A DNA stretch of 64,000 nucleotides from Cystobacter fuscus. GTDB lineage: Bacteria > Myxococcota > Myxococcia > Myxococcales > Myxococcaceae. The position numbers and the translations under genes are program-made. The first letter of the stretch is position 1. Each line of letters begins with the position of its first letter. Where the stretch lies: positions 9,920,001 to 9,984,000 of the forward strand of contig NZ_CP022098.1 in the NCBI RefSeq assembly GCF_002305875.1, written 5' to 3'. Below are positions 4,731 to 15,369 of this stretch, one piece after another. The notes under the pieces were generated by a model. The model was not told where the DNA came from and did not search any database. It was given only the letters and a program-made list of their open reading frames with translations.

Positions 4731-5432
4731 ATGAGATTGCCGCTGCTCTTGTTGCTTCTCGTCTCGGGACTCGCTCGCGCGGAGCAGACCTGCGCCACAC
4801 CAACCGAGAACCACCAGCGACTCGCCTTCATCCAATCCCACCTGAGCGAGGACGCACACCGGGCGCGGATCTGGATGGGCGCGTGGGGCGCGGGCTACGG
4901 GGTGTTGACCCTGGGCCAACTGGCCGCGGTCCCGGCCGTCCCCTCGGGTGAGCAGGTGGACCTCTACGTGGGAGCACTCTCCTCCGCCGGCGGGCTCGCG
5001 GCGCTTCTCGCTCTACCGCTGGACGTGATGACCGACTCCCTCACGCTCGACACGCTGGCGCGCGAACACCCCAGCGAGGTGGACTGCGACGTGCTCGCCG
5101 AGGCCGAACGGCTGCTCGTGCGCAGCGCCGAGAGCGAAGCGCTGGGCCGAAGCTGGCTGATGCACGGCGCGAACGTCCTCTACGGCCTCCTCTCCGGACT
5201 GGTGCTGGGCCTCGCCTTCGACCGGTGGGTCTCGGGCGCCGTCACCGCCGTCACCGGCATCCTGATCGGCGAGGCGATGATCCTCACCCAGCCCTTCGGA
5301 GCCGAGGAGACGCTCCGGCGCTACCGCGAGGGAGCGTGGCGCGCCTCGAGGGGTGCGCCATCACCCGCGTGGAACCTCCAGGTGGCGGTGGCGCCCTCTC
5401 GCATCGGCGTGCAACTGCACGTCTCGTTCTAA
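4731..5432 (+). CDS. Hypothetical membrane protein with signal peptide
   Basis: The product has 233 residues. ATG 4731 opens a cleavable signal peptide (MRLPLLLLLLVSGLARAEQT); an upstream in-frame start at 4671 would place 20 charged residues before it. Hydrophobic segments follow near residues 46-60, 80-105 and 147-190, including LSGLVLGLAFDRWVSGAVTAV. I do not recognise a family. The stop (TAA 5430-5432) overlaps the stop of the HerA-like gene on the other strand, so the two are convergent with no terminator between them. Position next to the five-gene minus operon does not prove a link, since it is on the opposite strand. Confidence 0.65.
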   Translation: MRLPLLLLLLVSGLARAEQTCATPTENHQRLAFIQSHLSEDAHRARIWMGAWGAGYGVLTLGQLAAVPAVPSGEQVDLYVGALSSAGGLAALLALPLDVMTDSLTLDTLAREHPSEVDCDVLAEAERLLVRSAESEALGRSWLMHGANVLYGLLSGLVLGLAFDRWVSGAVTAVTGILIGEAMILTQPFGAEETLRRYREGAWRASRGAPSPAWNLQVAVAPSRIGVQLHVSF

Positions 5433-7786
5433 TCCACGAGCAGCCGCTTCACGGGGGCGGGATCCACCGCGACCATCAACGGCCGGGCGAAGTTGCTGAA
5501 CGACATGAGCGCCTGGCCGGGCGCGAGCCGTGGCACCCGGTTCCACAAGCTCTCGTCGATGCCGCCCACCGTCTTCCTCATCCGGGAGATGACCGAGCTG
5601 TCCGTGATCTTGTGGATGATGAAGTTGTTGAGCAGCCCCAGCACCTCGTCGGGCAGGTGCTGCGGCAGTTGCGTGACGAAGACGAGCCCCAACCAACGCT
5701 TGCGCCCCCGCTTGGCGATCCTCGCCACCTGCTCGAACAATACCCGCATCTTGGAGAAGCGGCTGGCGGACAGGAACTCGTGCGCCTCCTCGATGATGAT
5801 GAGCACCGGGGTGATGGACTGTTTCTGCTCGTGCGCCGCCTGGTAGCGCGCCTCCTGCGTCTCCTGAAGACCCCGGAGGATGTCGGCGATGACGAGATTG
5901 CTGTGCTGGGGCGAGTCCGTGTCCGACAGGTCGATCACCGACACCCGCCCGGGCGTGAGCAGCTCGCGGTAGTCCACACCTGGCGCATCCTCGACATCGA
6001 AGACCTTGAGACGCCGCAGGTTCTGGAGCCTGCCCATCAGCGCCTTCCAACTGACCTCGCTCTTGCTGCTCTGCTCGCGCACCCTGCTCATCACGAGATA
6101 GGGCTTGTGCCGAAACTCGCTTTGCAACCTGGGACCCCGCCGAGTGGACTCCGCGTCCTCCGATTCCTCTTCCTTCTCGGAGTCCTCACTGGAGGTGCTC
6201 CGGCCGCGGGCGGACCTGGATTTGCTCCGGCCCTCCTCCTTGCCCTCACTGCCAAGGCTGTAGATGTACGCCTCCACGACGTCCAGCAGGTGCAGGAGCG
6301 TCATCCGTGGAAAGCCCGTCGAGTGCTCATCCACTTCCAGCACCTGCTCCCGCTCCTGCTCGTTGCGAGGGAAGATCTTGAAGTCCTCCAGGAGCAGCTT
6401 CGTGACGTCGTAAGCCTTGTGGAAGCGCTCCTCCTGCGCCTCCGTCATGCCGAGGATCTCCGAGATGGCGTAGGGCGACAGGCTCGAGAAGCTCAGCGAG
6501 AAGCGGTGCAGGTTTTCGTGCCCCGGGTTGCGGCTGTCCCTGCCCGCGAGATGGTGGATGTGCAGGTCCTTCACGCCCTCGGGATTGCGGCCCCGGCGCT
6601 TCAGGGCCGCGAGCATGGCCGCATGGTTCGTGGGTTGATCCACGTGCGTGTACTCCCCTTCCACATCGAAGACGACGGTCGCGATGCCCTCCGCCTGCGC
6701 GTGGTGGATGAGGGTGGCCACGGTGGTGGACTTGCCGCCGCCCGTCGTCCCGATGATGCCGGTGTGACGAGGGAGGATGGACTTGTCCTGGGGATCCAGG
6801 CGGGCCTCCATTCGCGCGTAGCCCGCCACCAACCCGAGGCACATGTTCCCCCCGAGTCCCAGCACGCGTGAGCTCTCCTTATCATCCAGCAGGAAGACGG
6901 GGCTCTTGGGGCGGGGCCGGAGGACGGGGGGCTCGAGTTTGTCACCCACCTCCTCCCCCAGTAGCTCGATGTCGGCGCGTCCGTGGTAGTCGAAGGTATA
7001 GGTCAGCTTCTTGCCCTGCACGACCACTCCCACGGCCATGGTGGAGTTGGCGGCGATGGCATCCGGTTCGGAGAAGGGGCCCCGCACCACCACGCCCAGA
7101 TAGGTGCGGTTGTCCTCGCGGGACTTCACCCGCACGAGCGTCTGGGAGGCCAGCTTGTGCAGGTCCCCCCGGGTCGTCAGGACGGTGATGAGGTTGTCCT
7201 CGCTCGACGAGGTGTCGAAGTGGGTGAAGCCCACGGCCTTCTCGAGCTCGGGATCCAGGTCCAGGGACGAGGCCTTGGCCAGCTCCTGGAGATTCTCGAA
7301 CTCCTTCAGCGTCTCCCCGGGCAGGGGGCTGAGGACCTCGTTGCGGGGCGAGGTTGGAGCAGTGGGCGACCTGGCCTGCGGCGCACCGCTGGGCTGCGAC
7401 GAAGCCTTGGGCTGCGACGGAGCAGCGGGCCGGGAAGGATCGCCCCGAGGGGTGGAGGGGACAGGAGTCGCCGCGGGTCCGCCCACCGGACCCGGTTGTG
7501 GACGCGTGGGATCCGGCCTCAGAGCGCCGGGGACGGGGGTGCTCGTGGACGGCCGGGCCACGGCCGGCGGTGTCCCTCTCGGAGCATCCACTCGGGGCCC
7601 ACCCGTGCCTGGGGGCGGAGCGCCCTGCACGCTCCCCGGGGGACGGACGGGCCCCCCAGGAGGAGGCGCCGCGCCCCCCGGTGAGGAAGGACCTCGGGCC
7701 GCCGCGGGGTTGGGCTTGCGATCGGGCCCGGGCTGAGGGGACGCCGGATCCGGAGGGACGGGAGGGGTCTTGCCATCATCGGCCAT
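5429..7786 (-). CDS. HerA-like P-loop ATPase / DNA translocase (DUF87 type)
   Basis: 785 residues. Residues 1-150 are Pro/Gly/Ala-rich and likely disordered. Residues 160-290 resemble the HAS-barrel region of HerA. The ATPase core follows: Walker A GTTGGGKST at 346-354, the conserved FDVEGEYTHV strand at 373-382, Walker B VLIIIEEAHEF at 661-671, a sensor strand LVFVTQLPQHLP at 701-712, and the basic stretch ARIAKRGRKRWLG at 688-700 that includes a probable arginine finger. A charged Ser/Glu/Arg insert lies at about 511-550. HerA forms hexameric DNA pumps that work with the nuclease NurA. It is the last gene of the operon, 12 bases after the NurA-like gene, which supports that partnership. Bacterial HerA relatives act in DNA repair or anti-phage defence; which applies here is not shown. 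Confidence 0.85.
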   Translation of the reverse strand: MADDGKTPPVPPDPASPQPGPDRKPNPAAARGPSSPGGAAPPPGGPVRPPGSVQGAPPPGTGGPRVDAPRGTPPAVARPSTSTPVPGALRPDPTRPQPGPVGGPAATPVPSTPRGDPSRPAAPSQPKASSQPSGAPQARSPTAPTSPRNEVLSPLPGETLKEFENLQELAKASSLDLDPELEKAVGFTHFDTSSSEDNLITVLTTRGDLHKLASQTLVRVKSREDNRTYLGVVVRGPFSEPDAIAANSTMAVGVVVQGKKLTYTFDYHGRADIELLGEEVGDKLEPPVLRPRPKSPVFLLDDKESSRVLGLGGNMCLGLVAGYARMEARLDPQDKSILPRHTGIIGTTGGGKSTTVATLIHHAQAEGIATVVFDVEGEYTHVDQPTNHAAMLAALKRRGRNPEGVKDLHIHHLAGRDSRNPGHENLHRFSLSFSSLSPYAISEILGMTEAQEERFHKAYDVTKLLLEDFKIFPRNEQEREQVLEVDEHSTGFPRMTLLHLLDVVEAYIYSLGSEGKEEGRSKSRSARGRSTSSEDSEKEEESEDAESTRRGPRLQSEFRHKPYLVMSRVREQSSKSEVSWKALMGRLQNLRRLKVFDVEDAPGVDYRELLTPGRVSVIDLSDTDSPQHSNLVIADILRGLQETQEARYQAAHEQKQSITPVLIIIEEAHEFLSASRFSKMRVLFEQVARIAKRGRKRWLGLVFVTQLPQHLPDEVLGLLNNFIIHKITDSSVISRMRKTVGGIDESLWNRVPRLAPGQALMSFSNFARPLMVAVDPAPVKRLLVD

Positions 7787-7798
7787 GGGTCATGTCTC

Positions 7799-8983
7799 CT
7801 AGGGGCGCCGCTTGCGCTCGCTGACGTAATGGAACTTCGCGCCCGCCTGGGCGTAGGCGTCATTCACCATGCCCATGAAGCCTTCCGTTCCGAAGGCTCC
7901 CCGGCAGGCCACATCCGCGACATCCAGGAGCATGGGGAAGCCCCGCTCGGAGCGGATGATGCTGTCGGCCATCGCCACGTGGGCGGCGATATGGGCGTGT
8001 TCCCGGTGCGCGTAGAAGAGGTACGGAGGCGACTGGTCCGACGCGCGGAAGATGCCTCGCACGACGTGCGGGCAGAACTCCTTCACGAACCGGAACGCCT
8101 GCTCCCGGTCCTTCTTGTCGTAGTTCCACCGGTCGACGATGTACGCGCTGTCCGCCTCGAGCGTGTCGATGATGGCGTACTCGCCCCCGAACAACGCGTT
8201 GCCAAAGGTCAGGAAGCCCCGGTCCTCCAACGAGTTGGGAATGAAGACGAACTTGCGGTGCTCCTGGATGAGGCGCTTGAGCAGCTCGAGCGATGCGGTC
8301 AGCAGGCTCGAATACCCGGAGCCCGACAGCAGCTCACGCGAGCAGGGGTTTCCATAGCCCATGCGCCAGTCGGCGTTCGACCTGTCCAGCAGGAGCGCCA
8401 GCTCCGCGTGGGCCCGGATGTTCCGGCGCGCCAGCTTGGACAGGGGATCCTCCTCCTCGATGCTCCGTGCCTGGCGCTGCTCGAAGATGTCCCGCAGCAG
8501 CTTGCGCCCATCCGTCTGGGTCGACATCTCCTTGCGGAAGAGGCGTTGGGAGAACACCCCCGTGTTGCCCCCGTAGCTCACGATGGCGATGCCAATCTGC
8601 GTGATGGCGATGGGAAGGCTGTCATGGGAGACGGCCACGCTGTTCACGGCCTCGACCCGCCCCGGGAAGAGCAGGCTCTCGTGAATGATGGCCAGGCGCT
8701 CGGGGCTGGCCTTGTAGACCCCCGCGCTCTGGGGCGCGTCCCGCAGCAGCTTGAGGCGGGGGAAGAACTCCTTCCGGATGGCCTCCCGGACGACGTCCTC
8801 CTGGCTCACCGCCGTGTCCACCTGCTCCTTGAAGCGCTTCAGGATGTGCCGGGGATCAAGCCCCAGCTCCCAGGTCCTGAGGTCCAGTGTGGCGGCGAGT
8901 TCCTCGCCAAACGCCGAACGGTAGTCATCGTCCCCGATGAAACCATCACCCCCATCCGGGGGAATCCCCTCCGACATGCTCAT
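7799..8983 (-). CDS. NurA-like nuclease (putative HerA partner)
   Basis: 394 residues. The C-terminal third has the pattern I associate with NurA-type proteins: GFPMLLDVADVACRGAFGTEGF at about 348-369, then AYAQAGAKFHYVSER before the end. ELALLLDRSNADW (194-206) resembles the central NurA acidic strand (consensus roughly LLDGxLixW). The N-terminal catalytic strand (consensus DGS) is not obvious; the best candidate is AVNSVAVSHD around 112-121, followed by ITQIGIAIVSYGG. It overlaps the ImmA/IrrE gene by 4 bp and precedes the HerA-like gene by 12 bases. A 5'-3' exonuclease/endonuclease role with HerA is inferred from context and partial similarity; loss of nuclease activity is possible. Confidence 0.55.
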   Translation of the reverse strand: MSMSEGIPPDGGDGFIGDDDYRSAFGEELAATLDLRTWELGLDPRHILKRFKEQVDTAVSQEDVVREAIRKEFFPRLKLLRDAPQSAGVYKASPERLAIIHESLLFPGRVEAVNSVAVSHDSLPIAITQIGIAIVSYGGNTGVFSQRLFRKEMSTQTDGRKLLRDIFEQRQARSIEEEDPLSKLARRNIRAHAELALLLDRSNADWRMGYGNPCSRELLSGSGYSSLLTASLELLKRLIQEHRKFVFIPNSLEDRGFLTFGNALFGGEYAIIDTLEADSAYIVDRWNYDKKDREQAFRFVKEFCPHVVRGIFRASDQSPPYLFYAHREHAHIAAHVAMADSIIRSERGFPMLLDVADVACRGAFGTEGFMGMVNDAYAQAGAKFHYVSERKRRP

Positions 8984-9711
8984 TCCTCCTCCCCCTCGGG
9001 GAAGTACTTCTGGATGGAAAAGGGCCGATGTTCTGGCCCGAGCAGGATGCGGGCGTACGCTGCGGCTTCCATCCGGCGAAGACCGAAACGGGAAGCCAGT
9101 TCGTCCGCGGCCCGCGTCCGGGGAAGGCCCTCAAGCATCCGCAGGGCCTGATCGGCCGGTGCCAACAACTCGAAGGCCAGACGGTCCGCGCGATGCTCCA
9201 CGGCGTCCACCTTCCCCGAGCAGATGGCGCCCGAGGAATCCCGGTCCATGAGTCGGACCTGAACACCCAGGGGAATCCGCTTGAGCATGGCGGACAGGCC
9301 CGTCAAAGCCCCGAGCTGGCGCTTGCCATCCAGCACCGGACGGATGTCCTCTCCGAAAGCCGCCAGGGCCTTCATTCGCGGCAGGAGATGATCGAGGACG
9401 AAATGGGCCACCTCGTGCGCCAGGGTGAAGCGTCGCACCTCCACGGAGTCCCGCTCCTCATAGAAGATGAATCCCCGCCCTTGATCCGCCACCATGAGCC
9501 CGTGGATCGGACGGTCCTGGTCCGGGACTTCGACCCGGATGTTGTTCCTCTGGGCCAACCAATCGCGAGCCTGGTGGCAGGTGAGCCCTGGAAGCGGAAC
9601 GAGGGAGACAGGAAGGTAGATTTCCACCTCGTCCGCCAGCTCGCGGGGGAACACCGTGGCGGGGGGAAGCCTGCTGGCCTTCACCGCGTCATCCAGCCAT
9701 CCGCTCCTCAT
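8980..9711 (-). CDS. ImmA/IrrE-family zinc metallopeptidase
   Basis: 243 residues. The zincin motif HEVAH is at 99-103 within RRFTLAHEVAHFVLDH, and the third-ligand segment VEHRADRLAFELLAP (171-185) provides Glu172, as in the ImmA/IrrE family. An N-terminal segment (residues 20-85) resembles the region before the active site in that family (YLPVSLVPLPGL, GFIFYEERDSVEVRRF). Known members (ImmA of ICEBs1, IrrE/PprI of Deinococcus) cleave an HTH repressor when cells meet DNA damage. Here the gene overlaps both neighbours by 4 bp (an HTH-like protein upstream, the NurA-like gene downstream), so the upstream small protein is a natural candidate substrate. That last point is inference. Confidence 0.85.
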   Translation of the reverse strand: MRSGWLDDAVKASRLPPATVFPRELADEVEIYLPVSLVPLPGLTCHQARDWLAQRNNIRVEVPDQDRPIHGLMVADQGRGFIFYEERDSVEVRRFTLAHEVAHFVLDHLLPRMKALAAFGEDIRPVLDGKRQLGALTGLSAMLKRIPLGVQVRLMDRDSSGAICSGKVDAVEHRADRLAFELLAPADQALRMLEGLPRTRAADELASRFGLRRMEAAAYARILLGPEHRPFSIQKYFPEGEEE

Positions 9712-10082
9712 TCGTCCATCTCGCCGTCATCGTCGTCCCGGTCCCGCGCCGCGAGCAACGTGGACCCGCTCGAGGGCCCCTGGCCCTCATGTTTCGAGAA
9801 GGTGTCCAGGGACTCCACGCGCCGGATGAGCCGCACCAGAGGAAGCGGCGCCAGCTCGAAGCGGTCCGTGATGAGGCGCAGATGCTCGGCGAACCGGTCC
9901 TCTTCCGGCCGGCGGCAGAGCGCGAGCCAGTCGAGCGTCTCGAGCGAGCAGCCCAACTCCGCCGCGAGGTCCTCGGGCGACTTGCCCTCGAGCCTGTGAG
10001 CCATCTCGAAGATGTAGCCGAGCGTCCACGTGTGCTCCTGGCTCTTGCGGACCGCGGGCTTCAGCCAGTCAGGCAGGGTCAT
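9708..10082 (-). CDS. Small HTH-like protein, candidate ImmA/IrrE partner
   Basis: 124 residues. The segment SPEDLAAELGCSLETLDWLALCRRP (35-59) has the spacing of an XRE-type helix-turn-helix (LAxxLGxSxxTLxxL). The following residues up to about 92 are helical, with RFELAPLPLVRLIRRVESL, and the C-terminus is acidic (DRDDDDGEMDE). There is no recognisable catalytic site. It overlaps the sigma-like gene by 14 bp upstream and the ImmA/IrrE gene by 4 bp downstream, so all are probably one transcript. The arrangement suggests a repressor or anti-sigma-like partner cut by the protease. The HTH assignment is from pattern only and could be wrong. Confidence 0.55.
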   Translation of the reverse strand: MTLPDWLKPAVRKSQEHTWTLGYIFEMAHRLEGKSPEDLAAELGCSLETLDWLALCRRPEEDRFAEHLRLITDRFELAPLPLVRLIRRVESLDTFSKHEGQGPSSGSTLLAARDRDDDDGEMDE

Positions 10083-10671
10083 CGGGGTCCTCCTTTCCTA
10101 AACGTTCCAGTGTCTTCATGAGCCGATCCCGATGCCGCTTCACTTCCCGGCGCATCTCCTCCTGCGACGAGGGGTCCAGTCCCAGCGCCCGCGCCAGGAC
10201 CTCGGTGGAGCCCTCCCCACTCACGATCAAGCGGAGAGCGGCCAGGTCCGTTTCACTCAGGCGCTTCTCCAGTCGGTCCACCGCACGGGATGCCTCCACG
10301 AAATTCTCTAAAATATCCTTCGGAGCCGGCTGCTCGAGTTCGACAACGCTCGCGAAATTCTCCTCGCGCAGGGCCCGCGAAACCCCCGACTTGAGCCGAT
10401 CCCGCACCCGATATTTCGCCGCCTTCGTGAGGTAGGTCACCAGACGGACCTTCCTGTCGGGGTCATACCGGCCTGGCGTCGCCACATAGGCGTAGAGCAC
10501 GTCGATGACGGCGTCGTAGGCGATGTCCTCGTCGCACTTCAGGTCATGCCGCACGAACCCCTCGATCTGCCTGGCGAAGGCCTTCAACAGATCGATCAGG
10601 ATCAAGGGATCCTTTTGAAGTGCCCGAGCGTGCAGCTCCCGCTCATCTATTATCGGAGGAACTCGACTCAT
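10069..10671 (-). CDS. Sigma-70-family-like factor (ECF-like)
   Basis: 200 residues from ATG 10671, which follows a strong GAGGAG five bases upstream; the in-frame ATG at 10692 has no such site. Residues 28-95 resemble sigma region 2: a helical LLKAFARQIEGFVRHDLKCDED, DAVIDVLYAYV, then YDPDRKVRLVTYLTKAAKYRVRDRLK, which is close to the region 2.3/2.4 consensus (YDPxRxxxxTYLxxxARxRxxDxLR). Residues 130-192 resemble region 4 (LSETDLAALRLIVSGEGSTEVLARAL then RREVKRHRDRLMKTLERL). It is the first gene of the operon and may drive its own transcription. A divergent sigma-like regulator that no longer binds polymerase is also possible. Confidence 0.65.
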   Translation of the reverse strand: MSRVPPIIDERELHARALQKDPLILIDLLKAFARQIEGFVRHDLKCDEDIAYDAVIDVLYAYVATPGRYDPDRKVRLVTYLTKAAKYRVRDRLKSGVSRALREENFASVVELEQPAPKDILENFVEASRAVDRLEKRLSETDLAALRLIVSGEGSTEVLARALGLDPSSQEEMRREVKRHRDRLMKTLERLGKEDPDDPA

Positions 10672-10758
10672 CCCCTCTCCTCGGCGGGCCATGTTCGGAC
10701 CCGCGCTCTCCGTGTGTGTTGTCCTTCCCTTCGGAACCACACCAGGGAGTTCGACGGG

Positions 10759-10779: not shown

Positions 10780-10908
10780 AGAGGTTGATCGAAGCCCCGG
10801 GCAGGAGTCCATACCCCTCAAGGAGTAGTCCTCCATGGCAATCACCCCGCCCCTCGCGCGTAAGCTGCGGAAGGGGCCCGAGCGTCACCACCCAAGGAGC
10901 CGTTGACC

Positions 10909-12486
10909 ATGAAGAAGCTGCTGGTGTTCGTCGTGCTGCTGGCCGTCGGAGCCGGGGCCGCGTATCACTTCGGCTATCTGGAGCGCCTGGGAGCCTGGTG
11001 GCCTCGAACACGGCTCATCCCCAAGGATCCCGCGCTGCTCGCCTACTTCGCACCGGACACCCGCGAGCTGATGCTCGTGCAGGCCACCGAGCTGGACTTC
11101 CGCCTCTCGGGCGAGTCCCGGGAGAAGTTCGAGCGGGAGGTGAAGGACTTCCAGACGAAGACCGGGATCGACACGCGCCGGGACGTGGACGCGATCGCCA
11201 CGACCCTGGGGCTCGGCGTCGTCCGGGGGTATTTCGACTGGAGCCGGCTCTCGGTCTACCTCCAGTCCGAGGGCTACACGCTCACCGAGCTGGGAGGAGT
11301 GCCCGCGGCGATGAAGCCGCAGGCGGCGGACCTGGTGCTCGATGGGCGCTACCTGCTGATCGGCCCCCGAGGTGAGCTGGAGCGGGCCCTCTCCCGCAAG
11401 CAGCGGGACCAGGGGCTCGACAACGACAGTCCCCTCGTACGGGCCCTGGATGAGATCGGCTGGAAGCACGCGCTGGTGGGCGGCATGGTGTCCGGCTCGC
11501 CGGTGTTGGCCCTGACGGGTGCCGTGGGCCCGCAGGTGCAGTCCCTCCTCACCACGATCGATCCCACCCCGGAGGGAATCGAGCTGCGCGGCACCGCCGA
11601 CGCCGGAAGCAAGCTCAAGGCGGACGTGCTGCGGGCGACCCTCGAGGTGATGCGCAAGACCCTCCTGCTCGGAGTCGCCCTGGACTCGAGTCCCGAGACC
11701 CGCGTCCTGCGCGACACCCTCGAGGCGGCCACGCTGGAGAGCGATGACCAGGGACGTGTGCGCGGCACCCTGCGCCTCCCCACCACGCTGGCGGAGAATG
11801 CCTCCGCGAACCTCTCCCGCGCCCAGTTCCCCGCGGCGCTCCAGAACCTGGGCCAGCCCTTCAAGAACCAGGACCCCACCGCCTCTGGGCAGCCCGCCGC
11901 CGCCCAACCGCCCCCGTCCACACCCGCGCCCACGCCCGTGGCCACCGTCGCGGCGCCCGTCACCCTGGACTGGAAGCCTCCGGTGCTCGGGTTGCTCCTG
12001 CTGGTGGTCGCGCTGGTGACGATGAGCGCCAAGACGCGCCCGGGCATGTTCAACGTCCTGTTCCACCCGCTCTTCCTGCTGCCCTTCCTCGTCACGACGA
12101 TGGGTGTCTTCGTGTTCCGGTGGACGGGCCACGCGGGCGGCGCGTTCGACGTGCTCGCCCTGCCCATGCCCGAGTGGCACCGCTTCCTCTCCTTCCCCAT
12201 CGCCCAGACCCTGGCGCTGAGCGCCGCGGTGCCCCTGGTCTTCGCCCTGCTCTCGGCCCCGGTGAAGTGGCTGCGGCGGTTCGCGGCGGGACTGGGGGTG
12301 GGCTTCAGCGCCTGGCTCGCGGTGAAGGCGCTCGCCCACCCGGCCGTGCCACTGATTCCTCCGGCCTACACGCTGTATTGGTACGCGGGCAACGCGCTCG
12401 TGGCCCTGCTCCTGGCGCGGATAACCCTTCCGCCGCGCCGGGCAAGTGGTCGAGCTACGCCCGCCCGCGCGCGGCCAGCAGCTTGA
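10909..12486 (+). CDS. Hypothetical protein: periplasmic domain plus C-terminal membrane domain
   Basis: 525 residues. ATG 10909 is preceded by AAGGAG at 10894-10899 with good spacing; a TTG six bases earlier would be too close. A signal or anchor helix (LLVFVVLLAVGAGAAYHFGY) leads to a soluble domain of about 300 residues that starts LIPKDPALLAYFAPDTRELMLV, a pattern seen in surface proteins resembling DUF3352. A Pro/Ala-rich linker at about 325-345 then leads to five or six transmembrane helices from residue 350 to the end. I do not recognise a named family. The gene diverges from the sigma/HerA operon. Its 3' end overlaps the 3' end of a reductase remnant on the other strand. Confidence 0.7.
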   Translation: MKKLLVFVVLLAVGAGAAYHFGYLERLGAWWPRTRLIPKDPALLAYFAPDTRELMLVQATELDFRLSGESREKFEREVKDFQTKTGIDTRRDVDAIATTLGLGVVRGYFDWSRLSVYLQSEGYTLTELGGVPAAMKPQAADLVLDGRYLLIGPRGELERALSRKQRDQGLDNDSPLVRALDEIGWKHALVGGMVSGSPVLALTGAVGPQVQSLLTTIDPTPEGIELRGTADAGSKLKADVLRATLEVMRKTLLLGVALDSSPETRVLRDTLEAATLESDDQGRVRGTLRLPTTLAENASANLSRAQFPAALQNLGQPFKNQDPTASGQPAAAQPPPSTPAPTPVATVAAPVTLDWKPPVLGLLLLVVALVTMSAKTRPGMFNVLFHPLFLLPFLVTTMGVFVFRWTGHAGGAFDVLALPMPEWHRFLSFPIAQTLALSAAVPLVFALLSAPVKWLRRFAAGLGVGFSAWLAVKALAHPAVPLIPPAYTLYWYAGNALVALLLARITLPPRRASGRATPARARPAA

Positions 12487-13300: not shown

Positions 13301-14590
13301 ATGACCCGCGACCCGAAGCATTCCGACGCCCCGAGCCGTCCCCGGGGCTATGAGCAGGTGGACCGGCTCTCCATCCCCCTCCCCCACGGCACCGAGGTCA
13401 CCACCCGCGTGGAGCGGCTGGCCGGAGAGCGCCGCATCCCCCAGGGAGTGGTGGGCCGCGTGGCCCGCGCCCGGGACGGCGGCTTCGACATCCAGATCGT
13501 CGGCGTGGGCGAGCTCTGGTACGCCCGGGACGAGCTGGTGCCGCGCAAGCCGGGCCAGCTCCAGTTCGCCCTGCGCCGCGCCGCCACCTGGGACGCCCTG
13601 CGCCCCTGCGTGGTGCTGGAGACCGTGGTGGGCTCGCAGGCCTGGGGCCTCGCCAACGAAGCCTCCGACGTCGACATGCGCGGCGTCTTCGCCCTCCCCC
13701 TGCCCTGGCACTTCGGACTCGCCGACAAGGCGAAGGATCTCGTCAGCGCGGATGGCAGCCACACCTTCTGGGAAGTCTCCAAGGCGGTGGAGCAGGCGCT
13801 CCGGGCCGATCCCAACACCCTGGAGACGCTCTTCGTCCCCAGCGCCCGCGCCACGGACGCCCTGGGCGAGTGGCTGCTCGCCGAGCGCGAGGCCTTCGTG
13901 TCCAAGGCGATCTTCGGCAGCTTCGGCCGGTATGCCATGAGCCAGCTCGACAAGCTCACGCGCAGCCAGCGGCTCGCCGAGCACCGGGATCTCGTCCTCG
14001 CGTGGCTGTGCGAGGAGCCCGCGCCCTCGCTCGACGAGGTGTCCCAGCGGCTCGCCGCCATCTCTCCGCGCACCGCGCCCTCGCCCGAGGACGCGCTGCT
14101 CGCGGCCAAGACGTACCTCAAGCAGCTCTACCGCTCGCTGTGGGATCAGGGCCTCATCGAGTCCAACGACTTCGCCGCCCTCACCCGCTATGCGCGCGGA
14201 GGCGGACAGCGGCCCCCCAGCGCTCGCGAGCTGCGGCCGAAGAACGCCTACAACCTGCTGCGGCTGGTGGTGCTCGCCACCGGATGGCTGAAGGACGGCG
14301 TGCCCACGTTCGAGGTGTCCGGCGCCATGAAGGCACGCCTGCTGGAGATCAAGTCGGGACAGGTTCCCCTGGAAGACGTGCTGCGAGACGCCGAGGCGCT
14401 CGCGCCGGAGTTGGAGGAGGCCCACCGCACCAGCACCCTGCCCGCGTTCCCCGATTACGGGCGCGCGGACCGGCTGCTGCGGCGCGTGGGTGAGGAGTTG
14501 GCGCGGCGCTGGGTGCTGAAGGAGCCCGGGCCGCTCGGCCGCGATGCCCCCGCGCCTCCGGCCGTCGAGGACAAGGAGGACGCCCCATGA
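13301..14590 (+). CDS. RlaP-type nucleotidyltransferase (DNA polymerase beta superfamily, PF10127-like)
   Basis: 429 residues. The nucleotidyltransferase core is at about 107-135: ETVVGSQAWGLANEASDVDMRGVF, with the GSxxxG helix and the SDxD metal-binding pair. A family segment follows (HTFWEVSKAVEQALRADPNTLETLF), then a long helical C-terminal region (YAMSQLDKLTRSQRL, LLAAKTYLKQLYRSLWDQG, KNAYNLLRLVVLATGWL) as in RlaP. The first 100 residues are an extra N-terminal region containing a small beta-rich stretch (QGVVGRVARARDGGFDIQIVGVGELWYARDELVPRKPG). RlaP proteins are associated with RNA-repair loci; no RNA ligase or RtcB is visible nearby. It overlaps the next paralogue by ATGA. Confidence 0.85.
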   Translation: MTRDPKHSDAPSRPRGYEQVDRLSIPLPHGTEVTTRVERLAGERRIPQGVVGRVARARDGGFDIQIVGVGELWYARDELVPRKPGQLQFALRRAATWDALRPCVVLETVVGSQAWGLANEASDVDMRGVFALPLPWHFGLADKAKDLVSADGSHTFWEVSKAVEQALRADPNTLETLFVPSARATDALGEWLLAEREAFVSKAIFGSFGRYAMSQLDKLTRSQRLAEHRDLVLAWLCEEPAPSLDEVSQRLAAISPRTAPSPEDALLAAKTYLKQLYRSLWDQGLIESNDFAALTRYARGGGQRPPSARELRPKNAYNLLRLVVLATGWLKDGVPTFEVSGAMKARLLEIKSGQVPLEDVLRDAEALAPELEEAHRTSTLPAFPDYGRADRLLRRVGEELARRWVLKEPGPLGRDAPAPPAVEDKEDAP

Positions 14591-15369
14591 CGCAGGACCT
14601 GCTGACGGAACACCAGACGCGCGTGGCCCAGCGCGTGCTCGACGAGGAAGCCGCGCACCGGTGGCACCTCGTCGTGAGCCTCACGGGGGCCCATGCGTAT
14701 GGCTTCCCCTCGCCCGACAGCGACCTGGACCTCAAGTGCGTCCACGTCACGCCCACCTCGCACCTGTTCCAGCTGGAGCCGCGCCCTTCCGCACCCACCG
14801 AGCGCCTGGAGATCGTGGAGGGCGTCGAGGTGGATTACTCCTCCAACGAGCTGGGTGCCGTGCTCACCGGCGTGCTCCAGGGCAATGGCAACTACCTGGA
14901 GCGGCTGCTCGGCGCCCACCCCCTCCGGGGCTCCAGTGAGCTGGAGGCCCTGCGGCCCCTGGTGCGGGGCGTCCTGTCGCGGCGCCTCCACCGGCACTAC
15001 CGCGGCTTCGCCCAGAGCCAGGCGCGCGAGTGGGAGAAGACAGGCTTTCGCTCCGCCAAGAAGCTCCTCTATGTGCTGCGCACGGCGCTCACCGGCACCC
15101 ATGCGCTGCTCACCGGCGAGGTGGAAGCGGACCTCACCGTGCTGATGGACCGCTATGGCTTCGCCGAAGCGGGAGAGCTCATCCGCTGGAAACGGCGCGG
15201 CGAGCGCAGCGAGCTGTCCGAGGCGCTCTCCCTAAGCTGGCGCGACAAGGTCGGCCGGGCCCTCGAGCAGCTCGACGCGGCGCGTGAGCGCTCCGTTCTT
15301 CCAGAGGAGCCCCGGGAGGGCGGCGCGCTGGAGGCGTGGTTGCTCGAACTGCGGCGCTCGCGGTGGTAG
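14587..15369 (+). CDS. Second RlaP-type nucleotidyltransferase
   Basis: 260 residues. The active-site core is VVSLTGAHAYGFPSPDSDLDLKCVHV at about 29-54, with the G-A-H-A-Y-G helix and the SDLD carboxylates intact. Family motifs follow: VDYSSNELGAVLTGVLQGNGNYLERLLG and the helical RSAKKLLYVLRTALTGTHALLTGEVEADL. It is shorter than its upstream neighbour because it lacks the 100-residue N-terminal extension. The 4-bp ATGA overlap implies coupled translation and perhaps a heteromeric enzyme. The nucleotidyl acceptor (RNA or other) is not known. Confidence 0.85.
   Translation: MTQDLLTEHQTRVAQRVLDEEAAHRWHLVVSLTGAHAYGFPSPDSDLDLKCVHVTPTSHLFQLEPRPSAPTERLEIVEGVEVDYSSNELGAVLTGVLQGNGNYLERLLGAHPLRGSSELEALRPLVRGVLSRRLHRHYRGFAQSQAREWEKTGFRSAKKLLYVLRTALTGTHALLTGEVEADLTVLMDRYGFAEAGELIRWKRRGERSELSEALSLSWRDKVGRALEQLDAARERSVLPEEPREGGALEAWLLELRRSRW

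Follow-up and report, generated by a model that had tools for sequence, protein, structure and literature searches.

A five-gene operon conserved across four bacterial phyla places an ECF-type sigma factor, an HTH-ImmA pair, HerA and a NurA-fold protein under possible common control in Cystobacter fuscus

Several described systems resemble parts of an operon found in a stretch of 64,000 nucleotides of the Cystobacter fuscus genome (positions 9,920,001 to 9,984,000 of the forward strand of NZ_CP022098.1, the single 12.35 Mb contig of assembly GCF_002305875.1; hereafter the window). The five genes of this operon encode a sigma-like factor of the extracytoplasmic function (ECF) type, a helix-turn-helix (HTH)-like protein, an ImmA/IrrE-type peptidase, a NurA-like protein and a HerA-type ATPase. 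An HTH protein likewise adjoins an ImmA/IrrE-type zinc peptidase in the CapH-CapP pair of cyclic oligonucleotide-based antiphage signalling systems (CBASS) and in the DdrO-PprI/IrrE pair of Deinococcus. HerA ATPases are paired with NurA-fold proteins in archaea and Deinococcus, and these are the top structural matches of the NurA-like protein. In TdpAB, which we take to be a HerA-NurA system with a role in defence, chain G (8wfd) matches the NurA-like model with a Z of 15.2; to our knowledge no sigma-HTH-ImmA module is known for it. The DUF4297-HerA anti-phage complex joins a HerA hexamer to an effector as well, there DUF4297, and its abstract names no sigma or ImmA genes (PMC11291478). An ECF sigma factor has been proposed as the transcriptional output of an immune-like system in the EACC/TRADD-N conflict systems; these are caspase-based, and the text contains neither NurA nor IrrE, with HerA in the title of a reference only (PMC8195603).

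The operon differs from these systems in its composition and in its NurA branch. Whereas CapH-CapP and DdrO-PprI are HTH-peptidase pairs, the pair here lies within one operon with genes for an ECF sigma factor, NurA and HerA, and its HTH protein has a low-confidence tail with an AARD motif. In contrast to the archaeal and Deinococcus proteins, the NurA-like proteins form a separate branch that the Pfam NurA model does not see and that has lost an aspartate in the Myxococcaceae. No description of the five-gene set was found in the titles and abstract openings of the literature matches listed, a search in which subscription papers and preprints were largely outside. With about even confidence, we read the operon as a transcription switch that responds to DNA, amplifies itself and is built around a ring of HerA and NurA.

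The five genes lie on the minus strand: sigma (10671-10069, 200 aa), HTH (10082-9708, 124 aa), ImmA/IrrE-type metallopeptidase (9711-8980, 243 aa), NurA-fold protein (8983-7799, 394 aa) and HerA-type ATPase (7786-5429, 785 aa, with a long Pro-rich N terminus). Their open reading frame (ORF) coordinates confirm the overlaps of 14, 4 and 4 bp and the gap of 12 bases given in an earlier note on this DNA, which had read them as one operon. The same five genes, in the same order and on one strand, were found in 37 of 40 family loci (each 10.6 to 19.5 kb), so the order is not due to chance; the 40 were picked by a match to the NurA-like protein, and loci lacking it could not enter. The three exceptions are L074, which ends at a contig edge, and L070 and L076, which carry HTH-NurA fusions with neither ImmA nor HerA at the locus. 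Fourteen further loci, 12 from outside Myxococcota plus L103 and L109, hold the full set in 11 cases, from Myxococcota, Chloroflexota, Actinomycetota and Planctomycetota; L109 ends at a contig edge, and L123 and L124 are partial. A scan of named genomes yielded 42 loci, including Chloroflexi, Actinomycetes, Planctomycetota and one Mesorhizobium record. Within the phylum the NurA-like gene is present in 56 of 195 genomes, all from one family and 7 of 90 genera. The operon is thus real and conserved as a unit across four phyla. None of the three outcomes by which the earlier note had said its proposal would fail (genes not conserved together, an order confined to this strain, or a 394-aa protein that is not a NurA fold) came about, and its sigma, ImmA, NurA (as a predicted fold) and HerA identities gained support, the HTH identity weakly so.

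Some loci depart from this plan. In L056, one of the 37 complete loci, an insert interrupts HerA at 7109-8074 and, judged by eye, resembles a transposase. In Mesorhizobium sp. CA8 (L123:8931-9683) an N-terminal scrap of the sigma gene is fused to ImmA and followed by NurA-like and HerA genes. L070:9006-10637 and L076:9017-10501 each comprise a sigma gene followed by the HTH-NurA fusion, and both genomes (G114 and G076) have a separate NurA-like gene elsewhere, which in G114 belongs to a full operon (L069). C. fuscus itself carries a decayed paralogue at 7.36 Mb (L007:3741-6083), with a sigma gene and then a 780-aa frame of HTH, a NurA scrap and HerA, and no ImmA; the Walker A of its HerA part reads TAEGGKS and the Walker B Glu is changed to Lys.

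The sigma-like protein alone matches TIGR02937 at 9.6e-8, under the curated cut-off, as are its single-sequence scores in general. A family profile compared with solved structures reached RpoE (1.2e-8), SigK (2.7e-5) and SigW (8.6e-4) and extended into part of sigma-4, with ECF similarity in both sigma-2 and sigma-4. By these profile matches the gene product is an ECF-type sigma factor.

The AAC of a -35-like half and its spacing to a -10-like half are typical of ECF promoters, and two elements of this kind accompany the sigma gene. The upstream element, P1 (GTCGAACT-N14-CGAA; 10730..10755, minus strand), lies 83 bp before the start codon in the window. Its general form, TCG[AC]ACT-N14/15-CGAA, precedes the sigma gene in 42/42 operons with such a gene; its distance to the sigma-domain start is 90-96 bp in most of them. 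An AACCT block lies further upstream (10782..10786, minus strand), and 36 of the 42 loci have AACC[TA] at a distance of 29-34 bp upstream of the element. A second copy, P2 (10319..10344, minus strand), falls within the coding sequence of the sigma gene and precedes the HTH-ImmA-NurA-HerA genes. Its form TCGAA[CG][TA]-N14/15-CGAA was present in 36/42 sigma genes, mostly near nucleotide 313 of the domain, while two relaxed matches fall elsewhere in the gene, at nucleotides 493 and 499. Shuffling synonymous codons gave the internal element in a mean of 2.5 genes and a maximum of 7 in 1000 trials. The aligned Glu column within it, taken without selection on the pattern, uses GAA for 37/37 Glu codons (five rows have another residue). 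This GAA share is the highest of 11 Glu-rich columns, the next being 0.72 and the rest 0.40 or less, and the sigma genes overall use GAG 588 times vs 247 for GAA. The codon before this column is xTC in 41/42 genes whether it encodes Val, Phe or Ile, and a later Lys/Asn column is AAx in 42/42. Judged by its codons, the internal element is under synonymous constraint. The exact GTCGAACT-N14-CGAA pattern occurs five times in the C. fuscus genome, with no hit in the backward control. Since every one of these sites is at a sigma locus, the circuit seems closed on itself, and the self-contained regulation proposed in the earlier note is supported to that extent.

The HTH protein would be the natural partner of the peptidase that follows it. 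Its predicted structure has six helices and a low-confidence tail (predicted local distance difference test score, pLDDT, 85.9; predicted template modelling score, pTM, 0.70), and the protein is probably XRE-like, with a C-terminal tail that is probably disordered. The tail is conserved at its end: AA[RQ][DE] (AARD, AAQD or AARE) closes 54 of 57 HTH homologues across phyla, and the AARD of the window (9741..9752, minus strand) is a candidate ImmA site. The other three are HTH-NurA fusions from loci that lack ImmA. The motif is constrained as amino acids and not as DNA, its Arg being written with six codons; these codons and the variable distance to the stop codon ruled out a ribosome-binding or other DNA element. 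The tail was retained in 54/54 HTH proteins at loci with ImmA vs 2/7 at loci without it (L153 and L154 keep it; L007, L070, L076, L155 and L156 do not), a difference with a Fisher p of 3.5e-6 when kinship is ignored. An HTH-ImmA fusion in L114 and HTH-NurA fusions in L070, L076 and L007 point to contact among these proteins, as far as gene fusions indicate it.

The peptidase matches PF06114 (Peptidase_M78) at 1.3e-11 and PADLOC capP in 36/36 members scanned, and its closest solved chain is CapP (2.7e-4). Its HExxH zinc motif (9403..9417, minus strand) is kept in 52/52 homologues, and a downstream motif, E..AD..A...L.P, is found in 45/52 by a strict pattern. PprI is reported to cut the HTH repressor DdrO and CapP to cut CapH, both upon activation by single-stranded DNA (PMC10904395); because of this precedent, cleavage of the HTH protein by ImmA at or near the AARD tail is our leading guess. 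The earlier claim that the protease releases a regulator stands in part, as a relay made plausible by analogy, with the HTH gene adjoining the peptidase gene as expected and the HTH fold XRE-like only weakly.

The NurA-like protein gave nothing above chance in Pfam, NCBIfam or a sequence search of solved structures. The Pfam NurA model (PF09376) matched neither the window protein nor 10 relatives from outside the Myxococcaceae, and it had no match across 58 genomes of the phylum. The predicted structure (pTM 0.74) nevertheless recovers NurA, with a Foldseek E of 4e-8 and Z scores of 17.8 over 278 residues (9x1m_G) and 17.6 over 269 residues (2ygk_A), both NurA; the best-scoring structures of other kinds are endonuclease V and Argonaute types, at Z 11.1 and below. 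These top matches argue that the 394-aa protein has a NurA fold, as the earlier note had supposed. Canonical Pfam NurA was found elsewhere in 4 of 13 further-locus genomes searched, all Chloroflexi, in which the NurA-like protein is accordingly not the sole NurA.

The beta-1 Asp of the DG motif is reported to be essential in NurA, with D49A abolishing the nuclease of Thermococcus kodakarensis (PMC12977600). The window protein has Asn at this site (codon 114; 8642..8644, minus strand). Alignment at the site is gapless within the family, and the site was placed on canonical NurA through the best local profile match (E 0.041). It is D in 13/13 relatives outside the Myxococcaceae and not D in 43/43 Myxococcaceae rows, where eight residues (N, A, T, S, Y, H, L or C) take its place. 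A maximum-likelihood tree of 55 rows, from which L007 was omitted, places the loss in one step with support of 100/99, and a metagenome-assembled Myxococcota genome that branches just outside the Myxococcaceae (L103) still has D. His 210 is retained in 12/13 outside relatives vs 9/42 Myxococcaceae. Because the Asp is universal in the outside relatives, absent from every Myxococcaceae row and lost in a single change, the window protein is probably a pseudo-nuclease. The view of the earlier note that HerA-NurA attacks or repairs DNA thus probably fails in the Myxococcaceae.

HerA shows no comparable decay. It matches DUF87 (PF01935) at 2.2e-19 and HerA_C at 2.7e-12. GKS of its Walker A (GTTGGGKST; 6725..6751, minus strand) is present in 52/53 rows, the sole row without it being the ORF fragment of L056, and both Walker A and Walker B are retained outside the decayed copy L007. 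A complex of HerA with pseudo-NurA may therefore be expected in the Myxococcaceae.

We infer the following course of events. The ECF-type sigma factor would read its own two promoters, P1 before its gene and P2 inside the coding sequence, while the HTH protein would hold the circuit off. DNA ends or single-stranded DNA, whether foreign or from broken DNA, would be the trigger, upon which the ImmA-type peptidase would cut the HTH protein at its AARD tail. This would free the sigma factor, and the whole operon would be made in bulk. Outside the Myxococcaceae (in Planctomycetota, Chloroflexota and others) the output would be a HerA-NurA nuclease that is made upon induction and probably serves as an effector of defence. 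In the Myxococcaceae, where the Asp appears to have been lost once and early, HerA and pseudo-NurA would serve as a DNA motor, clamp or sensor that feeds the switch.

Several observations weigh against such a switch. The element pattern was chosen after these very loci had been inspected. With one mismatch allowed, the C. fuscus genome has 24 sites vs 21 in the control, which is not clearly enriched; no wider sigma regulon was therefore seen in this genome by the strict or the one-mismatch scan, and the idea of one was dropped. The HTH fold assignment is weak: the model finds lambda repressor, HigA and CapH at a best E of 0.18, and profile matches stop at Noc (0.032) and SinR (0.57). Loss of the tail at loci without ImmA may reflect no more than deletion of adjacent DNA, as removing the neighbouring ImmA gene would take the tail too, which weakens tail loss as proof of cleavage. 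Local profile alignment to canonical NurA falls short of significance (E 0.041 for the DG-motif region and 0.22 for a C-terminal stretch), so membership in NurA rests on the fold together with the aligned DG motif; global alignment to the profile of four canonical NurA frames gave nothing usable. E194, H326 and D340 are invariant in all rows with a letter there and may still serve a degree of catalysis or the structure. The flanks of the Myxococcaceae loci contain no recurrent defence family (104 genes of 14 loci). The presumed M. xanthus sigma factor and HerA, discussed below, drop after mitomycin C in the reported data, which speaks against simple induction by DNA damage. Finally, the HTH protein could just as well use the elements as its operators.

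This last possibility forms the core of one alternative, in which GTCGAACT-N14-CGAA represents HTH repressor operators (direct CGAA repeats about two helical turns apart) and the sigma factor serves other genes. Two orphan HTH genes (L153 and L154) carry the element 48 bp upstream of their start, with no sigma gene found in the 16 kb fetched, as operators would allow; these copies resemble the internal one and may derive from a P2-type copy. Elements are also found near second HTH copies. In L051 (13139, 13187) and L055 (6664, 6713) a second HTH gene lies upstream of the sigma gene, with the element on both strands in a divergent-promoter-like arrangement. CapH-like HTH proteins are moreover reported to act as repressors (PMC10904395). 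Against operators stand the orientation of the upstream and internal copies, which is that of transcription, and the AAC half and spacing, which fit ECF promoters. The absence of further strict sites in the C. fuscus genome fits promoters and operators alike. In a scan of 76 family genomes at least 57 had a match; since many strict hits were away from sigma loci and the backward control was often non-zero, these hits were not taken as targets. We consider the operator explanation somewhat unlikely.

A second alternative is that the operon was domesticated for myxobacterial physiology or development and is unrelated to defence, which we find somewhat doubtful. Its restriction to one family among the 195 phylum genomes suits such a role, as do the flanks. 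The 104 Myxococcaceae flank genes (of 108 from a home-made gene caller, 4 longer than 3.6 kb being omitted) matched 16 families of PADLOC-DB (2023 version) at 1e-8, each in one gene, with PDC-S28 (1.2e-103), mad3 (1.5e-31) and PDC-M17A (1.1e-28) among the strongest; as no family recurs, the idea of a mobile or defence island in the Myxococcaceae was rejected. When the NurA-like protein was searched by tblastn against 50,697 phage records and 72,556 plasmid records, nothing matched. Full named PADLOC systems were not encountered; operon genes matched singly only (HerA types, mad8, DndH, capP and RmrA), and the NurA-like, HTH and sigma genes had no PADLOC match at 1e-3.

Published data from Myxococcus xanthus also favour domestication, provided that MXAN_4535-4539 is its copy of the operon. 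We take it to be so because of the five-tag span, the annotations and the context of the M. xanthus locus L113, whose five genes lie beside non-ribosomal peptide synthetase and major facilitator superfamily genes, compared with MXAN_4526-4530, reported as polyketide synthases (PMC3546991). The presumed MXAN_4536 is lower in a masABK mutant, and so is MXAN_4538 to judge from its place in the table (PMC3546991). After mitomycin C, MXAN_4535 (ECF sigma) is reported down at 10 h (log2 -2.5; 5 h not significant) and MXAN_4539 (HerA-like) down at 5 h (log2 -2.3; 10 h not significant) (PMC12288472). The DNA-damage response expected in the earlier note finds no support in these reported values, the presumed sigma factor and HerA each falling at one of the two times.

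Other features do not suit a purely domestic role: second copies in some genomes, several chromosomal contexts, the decayed paralogue, recurrent fusions, and relatives near CRISPR-Cas, type III restriction and DndB genes. Known defence genes lie near 5 of 8 scanned loci outside the Myxococcaceae, which is not an unbiased rate, the 18 neighbour proteins having been hand-picked by eye as interesting. They comprise Cas6, Cas1, Cas7, Cas5 and Cas3 in L112, Cas4-Cas1 and Cas2 in L119, Cas4-Cas1 in L121, a type III methyltransferase, a restriction enzyme and TmtA in L103, and DndB in L114. L115 and L117 have only helicases, and L122 (one cut-off ORF) had no match. The flanks of L118, L123 and L124 are ordinary by eye, and those of L120 and L125 are too short. 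The defence setting envisaged earlier thus holds for a selection of outside loci, while the Myxococcaceae flanks are not obvious defence islands.

The same sigma domain also occurs on NLR-like (nucleotide-binding, leucine-rich repeat receptor-like) proteins, which likewise tells against domestication. Two NACHT-HEAT proteins end in it, L008:4649-8095 (at 11.05 Mb in C. fuscus) and L147:4724-8212. In the 1264-1275-aa frames L148:7901-11725, L149:4564-8355 and L150:7689-11480 the C-terminal sigma domain is joined to an AAA or NB-ARC-like domain; some include TPR, and a TIR-like stretch scores under its cut-off. An unlikely but wider proposal would see here a myxobacterial innate-immunity network. 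In it, NLR-like receptors (the fusions NACHT-HEAT-sigma and NB-ARC/TIR-like-TPR-sigma) and a HerA/dead-NurA sensor of foreign or broken DNA would all act through one ECF-like sigma family. The sensor would trigger ImmA to destroy the HTH inhibitor, and the sigma factor would amplify its own production from the second promoter within its gene.

Least probable, and in our view quite improbable, is an ordinary inducible HerA-NurA nuclease for end processing or defence under a CapH/CapP-type controller, with other acidic residues making up for the missing Asp so that NurA still cuts: the fold is intact, E194, D340 and H326 do not vary, acidic residues stand at 111 in 52/56 rows and at 121 in 53/56, and 37 of 39 family relatives are 46-60% identical to the window protein (the other two 80% and 40%), but mutation of the beta-1 Asp is reported to kill the T. 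kodakarensis enzyme (PMC12977600), and eight residues at that site with a variable His 210 look like relaxed constraint.

Beyond the operon, a 525-aa protein is encoded divergently at 10909-12486 of the window and has no Pfam match at 1e-5, and two tandem genes for RlaP-family nucleotidyltransferases (PF10127) lie at 13301-15369.

The operon ties three well-studied modules, the ImmA-HTH relay, the ECF sigma factor and HerA-NurA, into one conserved unit. It offers a natural HerA-NurA pair that lacks the cutting residue, and a circuit open to experiment in which a coding sequence contains a promoter-like element. If the proposed switch is true, the operon would illustrate how a ring that translocates DNA can act on transcription, and it would link NLR-like bacterial proteins to sigma-factor output. 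The candidate M. xanthus operon, MXAN_4535-4539, would make this circuit testable in a standard strain.

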